DNA of 36,153 nucleotides. Source: Rhodospirillaceae bacterium (GTDB lineage: Bacteria; Pseudomonadota; Alphaproteobacteria; Rhodospirillales; Rhodospirillaceae). The translations under genes were made by a program, and so were the position numbers. Below are positions 22,730-23,946 of this stretch, piece after piece. Each line of letters opens with the position of its first letter. Position 1 is the first letter of the stretch. Location of the stretch: positions 1 through 36,153 of the forward strand of contig SHVO01000013.1 of NCBI GenBank assembly GCA_009694245.1, written 5' to 3'. Below the pieces are notes generated by a model. That model was not told the DNA's origin. It worked only from the letters and a program-made list of their open reading frames with translations, and made no database searches.

Positions 22730-23065
22730 ATGACTTACGTCGTCACCGAAAACTGCATCAAGTGCAAGTATATGGACTGCGTCGAAGTCTGTCCGGTGGA
22801 CTGCTTCTATGAAGGCGAGAACATGCTGGTCATTCATCCTGACGAATGCATCGATTGCGGCGTCTGCGAGCCCGAGTGCCCCGCCGAGGCCATCGTTCCC
22901 GACTCGGACGAAACCGCCGCGGCTTGGCAAGATATCAACAAGGACTACGCCGATAAGTGGCCGAATATTACGACCAAGGGCGAAAGCCCGGCGGACGCCG
23001 ACGAGTGGAAAGATAAACCAGATAAAAAACAGCTACTTAGCGTCAATCCCGGAAGTAATGCTTAA
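22730..23065 (+). CDS. fdxA: FdxA-type 7Fe ferredoxin
   Basis: This 111-residue protein is a two-cluster ferredoxin of the FdxA family, an electron carrier in the cytoplasm. The first cysteine set is [17 protein letters not shown] and the second [12 protein letters not shown]. The spacing fits one [3Fe-4S] and one [4Fe-4S] cluster, and the start [10 protein letters not shown] is family-typical. The acidic C-terminal extension with [12 protein letters not shown] is also characteristic. GAGG lies close before the ATG. It could supply or accept electrons for the korAB enzyme elsewhere in the window, but that is only suggested by co-occurrence. It is followed by a strong terminator. Confidence 0.94.
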
Positions 23066-23103
23066 GCTCAATCCAAGGCTTTAAGTTCGAACGTTAAGCC
23101 TTT

Positions 23104-23125
23104 ACAGGTCCTTTGACCTGTTTTT
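23104..23125 (+). terminator. Intrinsic terminator of fdxA
   Basis: ACAGGTC (23104-23110) pairs perfectly with GACCTGT (23115-23121) around a CTTT loop and is followed by TTTT. A weaker hairpin (AAGGCTT 23075-23081 with AAGCCTT 23096-23102) stands just before it. The position, 39 bp after the fdxA stop, makes this the fdxA terminator. Confidence 0.85.
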
Positions 23126-23154
23126 CCGACCATTTTTGTGGTAGGGTCTTTCCA

Positions 23155-23198
23155 ATCCGTCGGGGAACCGGCGGATTATTTTTTCTCCGCCGATTTTT
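23155..23198 (+). promoter_or_regulatory. Two overlapping, mutually exclusive terminator hairpins
   Basis: The arm at 23168-23176 can pair upstream or downstream. Upstream, ATCCGTCGG (23155-23163) pairs with CCGGCGGAT (23168-23176; one G-T wobble, GGAA loop), followed by TATTTTTTC. Downstream, CGGCGGA (23169-23175) pairs with TCCGCCG (23186-23192) around TTATTTTTTC, followed by ATTTTTG. Each fold excludes the other and each ends in a T run, the layout of an attenuator switch. What it would sense is not evident. Confidence 0.55.
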
Positions 23199-23207
23199 GC
23201 GAGCCTT

Positions 23208-23240
23208 TGACGGTAAGTCTATGAAATACCGTCATTTTTT
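23208..23240 (+). terminator. Third terminator hairpin before carD
   Basis: TGACGGTA (23208-23215) pairs perfectly with TACCGTCA (23227-23234) around an 11-nt loop, followed directly by TTTTTT (23235-23240). No annotated gene ends between the fdxA terminator and this one, so it must end a small RNA or act on a transcript heading into carD. Confidence 0.75.
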
Positions 23241-23257
23241 CTTGAAGCGGAGGTTAG

Positions 23258-23308
23258 GTGCGTTCGACCCGCATCAGCGAGCGTCATGTTCGCGGGGCGC
23301 GCGGGTAA
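23258..23308 (+). CDS. Possible 16-residue Arg-rich leader peptide before carD
   Basis: A GTG start at 23258 lies 4 nt after GGAGG (23249-23253) and opens a 16-residue reading frame, VRSTRISERHVRGARG, ending at TAA (23306-23308). It contains five arginines. It begins 18 bp after the third terminator and about 110 bp before carD. It is too short to assign, and a chance Shine-Dalgarno sequence is possible. Conservation in related genomes would decide. Confidence 0.3.
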   Translation: MRSTRISERHVRGARG

Positions 23309-23418
23309 GCCGAGATCTTGAAGTGGAAGAGCTGGCCCGTTGGCGCGGGACCGGCCGTTGGGGGATCTAGCTCTACGGACGACTTAAATAACCCAGGGAC
23401 TGGAGTGAGAGACCGAAT

Positions 23419-23946
23419 ATGCCCAAGACAGCAAAAACAGTAAAAGAAATCAAAGCGGCACTCCCGTTTTCAGCGGGCGACTTTGTGGTTTACCCGGCGC
23501 ACGGGGTTGGCAAAGTCACGAGCGTCGAGGCCCAGACCATTGCCGGCCAGAAGGTCGATCTGTTTGTCATCAGCTTTGAGCGTGACCGCATGACCCTGCG
23601 CGTTCCGGTGCGCAAGGTCGAGAACTCGGGTCTGCGCAAGCTCTCCACCCGCAAAGTCATGGAAGCGGCGCTGACAACCTTGAAGGGCCGCGCCCGGGTC
23701 AAGCGCGCCATGTGGAGCCGCCGCGCTCAGGAATACGAAGCCAAGATCAATTCCGGTGATCCGGTGTCGATCGCCGAAGTTGTCCGCGACCTGCACCGCG
23801 GCGCGAGCCAACCGGAGCAGTCCTACAGCGAACGCCAGATTTACGAGCAGGCGCTTGAGCGCCTGGCCCACGAAGTCGCGGCCGTCGAGAAAATCAAACC
23901 CGAAGCCGCCACCGCCAAGTTGGAAAAACTGCTCAACGCCGCCTAA
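23419..23946 (+). CDS. CarD/CdnL family RNA polymerase-binding regulator
   Basis: CarD/CdnL proteins bind the RNA polymerase beta subunit and stabilise open promoter complexes, notably at rRNA promoters. This 175-residue protein has the N-terminal polymerase-interaction domain (about residues 17-75; FSAGDFVVYPAHGVGKV, FVISFERDRMTLRVPV). The helical DNA-binding C-terminal domain includes KRAMWSRRAQEYEAKINSG, the conserved Trp region, and AEVVRDLHRGA. The length is normal for alphaproteobacterial CdnL. It lies downstream of the hairpin-rich 23066-23418 interval, which may control it. A hairpin at 23969 follows the gene. Assignment to the CdnL branch is likely; the symbol is left blank because naming differs between species. 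Confidence 0.93.
   Translation: MPKTAKTVKEIKAALPFSAGDFVVYPAHGVGKVTSVEAQTIAGQKVDLFVISFERDRMTLRVPVRKVENSGLRKLSTRKVMEAALTTLKGRARVKRAMWSRRAQEYEAKINSGDPVSIAEVVRDLHRGASQPEQSYSERQIYEQALERLAHEVAAVEKIKPEAATAKLEKLLNAA

Follow-up and report, generated by a model that had tools for sequence, protein, structure and literature searches.

A terminator-like hairpin on the predicted transcription start of carD in a Rhodospirillaceae bacterium and its relatives

Transcription of carD in a Rhodospirillaceae bacterium is predicted to begin on the first base of a terminator-like hairpin, P1. This arrangement is probably best explained as an attenuator of carD that is embedded in the start site, similar to greA/GraL of Escherichia coli. 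Sequence comparison of related loci supports a conserved promoter block, P1 and its T run located a fixed distance from that block, two further leader stems (P2 and P2a), a single place at carD, and the recurrence of terminator-like hairpins near the start in other lineages. From these features, we infer actual termination at P1 and regulation of that termination.

The window, i.e., the whole stretch of 36,153 nucleotides that was analyzed, belongs to an assembly that is 76% complete (1.64 Mb in 63 contigs). Among named contigs, the closest CarD sequences come from metagenome-assembled Rhodospirillaceae. Positions 23066 to 23257 comprise the fdxA 3' end, the predicted carD promoter, and the first part of a conserved carD leader. 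This 192-nt stretch has a folding z score of -4.45, and none of 200 shuffles was equally stable. The features are listed below, where d is the d'Aubenton-Carafa terminator score.

22730..23065, + strand: fdxA, 4Fe-4S ferredoxin of 111 aa, the gene upstream of carD (Pfam Fer4 and DUF3470)
23075..23102, + strand: weak hairpin in the fdxA 3' untranslated region (14-nt arms, 86% complementary, without a T run, d = -71)
23104..23125, + strand: modest fdxA terminator (hairpin 23105-23120 followed by T5, d = -5)
23118..23123, + strand: -35-like element CTGTTT of the predicted carD promoter, 18 nt 5' of the -10 hexamer, within the conserved block CTGTnTTT
23139..23147, + strand: extended -10 element TGGTAGGGT of the predicted carD promoter, with T at -7 (promoter matrix)
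23154, + strand: predicted transcription start (+1), the first base of P1, placed by the gap between -7 and P1
23154..23184, + strand: P1, a terminator-like hairpin at 23154-23177 with a downstream A and T6 (23179-23184)
23185..23190, + strand: 5' arm of the P2 outer stem, overlapping the 3' arm of the shared-arm stem
23208..23234, + strand: P2a hairpin with a loop around AAGTCTATGA, then T6
23247..23252, + strand: 3' arm of the P2 outer stem, GCGGAG
23258..23398, + strand: leader, 3' part: GC-rich hairpins that extend as far as the ribosome-binding site, with a sequence conserved in the genus
23402..23405, + strand: likely Shine-Dalgarno sequence GGAG, in a conserved TGGAG block
23419..23946, + strand: carD/cdnL, 175 aa (Pfam CarD_TRCF_RID and CarD_C)

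A total of 158 loci were collected through CarD similarity, and fdxA lies upstream of carD in 138 of them (duplicates and second carD copies included). After removal of seven duplicates, 132 unique loci with fdxA upstream remained, 117 of which passed a promoter cut set by one shuffle per locus. Most comparisons below concern 28 core loci, namely, the window and 27 relatives. Since the loci are mutually related, it should be noted that the shuffle and swap tests ignore this kinship.

carD is predicted to have its own extended -10 promoter directly 3' of fdxA. The first-pass annotation of this DNA did not mention this promoter, which lies between the fdxA terminator and P1. The aligned fdxA-carD gaps of relatives share the block CTGTnTTT, about 18 nt, and TGnTAnnnT (24 loci in the conserved-block alignment; the pattern missed L014, L015, L017, and L019 of the 28 core loci). 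The pattern occurs once in the window (23118-23143) and in 0/100 shuffles, which describes the loci rather than tests them, as the pattern was derived from these same sequences. The iterated promoter matrix, with which 117/132 loci pass the cut, was likewise trained on loci that it also scored, so a held-out test was run, the seed positions of which still come from that matrix. In this test, a matrix built from 34 P1-bearing loci beat 95% of the shuffles in 52/98 held-out loci, with a median score of -0.3 in contrast to -11.5 for the shuffles. Against the attenuator reading, the same matrix did not exceed this level in 46/98 held-out loci, and 15/132 loci failed the promoter cut, including all six Azospirillum loci.

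The predicted start was placed using the usual spacing between -10 and +1. In the window, A23154 is the first base of P1 and lies six nt 3' of the -10 element. The gap between the -10 element and P1 measures 5 to 7 nt in 28/28 core loci, and the transcript is therefore predicted to begin on P1, to within one base. The carD +1 would thus coincide with the first base of the hairpin. Two observations concern the promoter elements themselves. The fdxA terminator shares sequence with the carD promoter, as its 3' arm and T run (23117-23125) also serve as the -35 region. The -7 base of the 117 predicted carD promoters is T in 46, A in 43, G in 21, and C in 7; this base is said to matter for the CarD requirement of promoters in Rhodobacter sphaeroides (PMC8407463).

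P1 folds with -16.2 kcal/mol in the window and reaches d = 22.5 at best. Its score exceeds 0 in 26/28 core loci (median, 21), the exceptions being L005 (d = -3) and L114, which failed the tail rule. The P1 sequence is better conserved than its flanks, and the T run is nearly invariant across the P1 group, while further loci have other stem sequences and retain the T run. In alignment A1 (20 of the 28 core loci; 21 were prepared, and L115 was omitted), P1 pairs are kept in 97.5% of cells. When 5' and 3' arms were exchanged among the 28 loci, 3/5000 swaps were as low in energy. The hairpin's own covariation is thin because P1 is nearly invariant: one of its 10 pairs changed on both sides in A1. 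L117 shows matching changes in both arms. A GC-rich hairpin with an immediate T run between promoter and gene, as expected of an attenuator based on an intrinsic terminator, is thus present at this position, and we regard P1 as a terminator-like hairpin and putative intrinsic terminator at the start of carD.

The swap tests cover 28 of 36 listed P1-bearing loci. Eight g2/g5 loci (L023, L024, L033, L034, L119, L121, L122, and L141) were left out because P2 is unrecognizable there by eye. The tests likewise exclude two additional P1-bearing places, namely, L163 (G001) and the second one in G066.

Downstream of P1, the predicted carD leader of approximately 265 nt continues with P2, P2a, and a GC-rich 3' part. 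In P2, 23185-23190 pairs with 23247-23252, about 60 nt downstream, thereby enclosing P2a (23208-23234). Because a 37-nt region is searched in the P2 swap test, a fair duplex is found in all 28 loci, and only the excess over swaps counts. None of 5000 swaps was as low for P2 (mean energy, -13.8 within loci versus -10.9 between loci) or for P2a (-7.3 versus -3.8). On the 20 sequences of A1, five of nine P2 pairs and six of eight P2a pairs changed on both sides, and 74% and 81% of cells, respectively, were kept paired. The 3' ends of L002, L011, L017, and L019 look shifted in this alignment, which lowers the P2 count. Together, P1, P2, and P2a have 12 double-changed pairs compared to 7.9 in shuffles and a covariation score of 0.224 compared to 0.140, although related sequences may exceed shuffles without any structure; slid versions of the structure score at most 0.144. 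The slid controls and the matched changes speak for P2 and P2a as real stems.

The P2a loop (23215-23224; AAGTCnTTGA-like) is conserved in core loci L002 to L159 and, judged by eye, is kept even in L021 and L115 to L117 despite a poor P2a stem. As an element with copies elsewhere, the loop found no support: the pattern GTAAGTNNTTGA, which does not cover the window's own loop, was no more common than its reversed control in 19 genomes (60 versus 85 matches). The 3' part of the leader (23258-23398; GCC..GATCTT ... GGGGGATCAGGC) is conserved in the genus, with similar folds by eye in 11 members.

The element appears to be confined to carD. A search of 73 family genomes with covariance model R1 (E <= 0.001, stricter filters) gave 38 places in 33 genomes. 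Thirty-two of these score above 37 bits, in 31 genomes (two in G066), and all 32 lie before carD: 31 share a contig with a carD match, and the remaining one, in G001, follows fdxA where the contig ends. Twenty belong to the model's own set, with which the other 12 agree. Among the six lower-scoring places, three were read, of which the one in G096 lies before carD and L164 and L165 are unrelated GC-rich hairpins. Several genus genomes and G089 carry a second, diverged CarD gene (59 to 75% identical) without fdxA found upstream. No R1 match was found on the contigs of diverged second copies (L031 and L142 to L150); the second, partial carD of G066 does have one. Class-wide, 3/289 genomes matched, namely, the window's genome and two weak cases (30 to 33 bits). 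The window's own, incomplete genome contains one match. Rfam gave no match at curated score in the window and, for 23000-23430, two snoRNA hits that fall well short of their gathering scores (E values of 2.8 and 3.4), and the exact P1 29-mer had no match in viral contigs. The first-pass annotation had offered a family of small RNAs as an alternative. This idea was dropped, since the family and class-wide searches yielded no convincing copy besides those at carD.

To what extent does the arrangement recur in loci with other hairpin sequences? A hairpin was counted as terminator-like and start-proximal when it lay in the first 80 nt 3' of the predicted -10 element with d above -20. Such a hairpin is found in 56/117 loci compared to 4.4 expected from shuffles: in 33/34 P1 loci and in 23/83 others, where 2.7 are expected and where 14/83 have d > 0. 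The recurring hairpins differ in sequence from P1. Control windows rarely qualify (6/253 for other 80-nt leader windows; 3/328 for windows before fdxA, the start of which is approximate). When CarD sequences are clustered at 88% identity, 17/53 clusters without P1 carry a start-proximal terminator-like hairpin in at least half of their members. When no T run is required, hairpins at +1 exceed chance only slightly outside the P1 group (44/83 versus 33.4 expected) and were discarded as the feature in question; the excess lies in the terminator-like form. This pattern points to termination rather than mere protection of the 5' end. Against the attenuator reading, 60/83 non-P1 loci are without a start-proximal terminator-like hairpin, including Thalassospira L042, L043, L045, and L047 and Magnetospirillum L037 and L038, and some of the 23 hairpins begin as late as +11 to +31.

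Several other explanations were weighed against a start-site attenuator. The first-pass annotation had described a cascade of terminators with an attenuation switch in its middle. All of its hairpins are present by fold, complementarity, and d score. As a set of terminators, they hold up poorly: P1 apart, d exceeds 0 in 5/28 core loci for the best hairpin in the fdxA-terminator region and in 1/28 for the last hairpin. That last hairpin, which was thought to end some other RNA, is P2a with its T6. It reaches d = 6.1 in the window, the only locus above 0, and d > -20 in 3/28, and was rejected as a conserved terminator. It need not end another RNA, because its terminator quality is peculiar to the window's genome. 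Regarding attenuation, a carD leader with a terminator-like hairpin is retained from the earlier proposal; the shared-arm switch, in which the 3' arm of P1 would alternate with 23186-23195 to give two mutually exclusive terminators, was rejected and seems very improbable. Its stem joins the P1 3' arm to the P2 5' arm (23166-23175/23186-23195, 90% complementary; -14.5 kcal/mol in the window), with d = -2.4 when one unpaired base per end is allowed and -31.7 when both ends must pair. Complementarity is strong (-11 kcal/mol or lower) in 8/28 loci, window included, and 77% of A1 cells are paired, no fewer than for P2. However, a version slid by three columns does equally well (78%) because the P1 3' arm hardly varies, 501/5000 swaps were as low across the 28 loci, and the proposed covariance check on the alternative stems, run on A1, found no shared-arm pair changed on both sides, in contrast to 12 such pairs in P1, P2, and P2a together. 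Loss of pairing in relatives that keep carD, which the annotation had itself named as evidence against the switch, is what several of the loci display: the duplex is weaker than -9 kcal/mol in 16/28 and is -5.5 kcal/mol or weaker in 6/28, with carD retained. Moreover, the 3' partner would be made only past the P1 termination point and is used by P2, and an exclusive choice is unnecessary because P1 and P2 can coexist. The conserved excluding pairing that marks an antiterminator/terminator switch was thus not found for the shared-arm stem, the sole alternative tested.

The remaining alternatives accept P1 and differ in what it does. It may shield carD mRNA from 5'-dependent decay as a 5'-end stabilizer, the T run being incidental. 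This would fit a hairpin that begins at the predicted +1 and the +1 hairpins without a T run in some loci, such as Magnetospirillum L038 and Paramagnetospirillum L040, yet it leaves the near invariance of the T run in the P1 group unexplained, as well as an excess outside that group that concerns hairpins with a T run far more than +1 hairpins in general. We consider this role unlikely. Somewhat less likely still, P1 could serve as a second terminator for fdxA read-through, with mere crowding placing it at the carD +1. The modest fdxA hairpin would leave room for such a shield, which nevertheless needs no position at the carD start, held in all core loci, where carD transcripts would be stopped too; some distant loci, such as L036 from Magnetovibrio blakemorei, have by eye a separate hairpin after fdxA in addition to the start-proximal one. 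Finally, the RNA of about 30 nt ending at P1 might act in trans as a small RNA, with carD read-through being secondary. P1 is indeed more conserved than its neighbors, and E. coli GraL is described as both cis- and trans-acting (PMC6829880). The confinement of the element to carD weighs against this, although a single-copy RNA is still compatible, and we rate it as improbable.

Under the preferred reading of a start-site attenuator, RNA polymerase would start at A23154 and make P1 as its first RNA. The T run would be reached at about +30, where some complexes would stop; because P1 would occupy the very start of the RNA, a substantial share of initiations should yield only about 30 nt. The remaining complexes would read through into the leader and carD, and the fraction passing P1 would set CarD output. 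The predicted RNA has no sequence 5' of P1, which leaves no place for an upstream antiterminator RNA. Any control would instead have to act via RNA polymerase or its factors, nucleoside triphosphate (NTP) levels, or the choice of start site, as a start a few bases downstream would shorten the P1 5' arm.

A known system of a similar kind is E. coli greA, where about one-third of transcripts read through an intrinsic terminator located early in the leader and where GreA raises the amount of terminated leader RNA (PMC6829880). Both genes encode RNA-polymerase-binding factors and have an intrinsic terminator, putative in the case of carD, within the first tens of nucleotides (PMC6829880), with the carD start placed from its promoter. 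In the greA/GraL system, the short RNAs measure 37 to 59 nt and the early leader sequence matters; about 18 to 19 nt precede the hairpin there, in contrast to none in the carD leader (PMC6829880). The carD leader also differs in its continuation, a structured RNA with a length of some 265 nt, and the likeness assumes no homology. More generally, terminators in 5' leaders are a common means of control, and the greA and rnk leaders were included in the survey of Naville and Gautheret (2010; PMC2965389). carD is absent from the main text of that survey, whose filter discards terminators that are nearer to the upstream than to the downstream gene (PMC2965389). This filter would remove P1, because it lies 89 nt from fdxA and about 235 nt from carD.

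Control of CarD amount is known from other bacteria. In R. sphaeroides, CarD is cited as a negative regulator of its own promoter (Henry et al. 2021, as cited in PMC11034885 and PMC8820732). Negative control by the gene's own product would be the shared element (PMC11034885); it is cited at the promoter level, and the citing passages name no leader or attenuator (PMC11034885, PMC8820732). In mycobacteria, CarD amount depends on an antisense RNA and the Clp protease, and in Caulobacter, the protein is lost in starvation (PMC11034885, PMC8820732). The mycobacterial RNA, AscarD, resembles the proposed role of the carD leader in providing RNA-level control of CarD amount by growth state; it differs in being antisense, in acting on translation, and in arising from the opposite strand of carD-ispD (PMC8820732). 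A literature search at the level of titles and abstracts, in which subscription journals are thinly covered, returned no carD leader or attenuator among the matches listed.

If P1 is indeed a terminator on the start site, it would be a very compact attenuator, which, lacking room for an upstream antiterminator, would need to respond to the state of the polymerase itself. The attenuator reading predicts an RNA of about 30 nt, made at one place and tied to one gene, and the carD leader joins the covariation-supported RNAs without an Rfam match. A more speculative extension, which we consider doubtful, is that the embedded terminator acts as a feedback or growth-rate sensor, with read-through at about +30 set by promoter exit (CarD itself, the NTP or ppGpp level, or a start choice that trims P1), that the P2/P2a leader provides a second control step, and that the arrangement has repeatedly evolved or been retained among Rhodospirillales-like lineages. 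CarD/CdnL is needed, or proposed to be so, at rRNA and many other alphaproteobacterial promoters (PMC8407463). Our findings suggest that many carD transcripts end prematurely and that the number getting through determines CarD levels.
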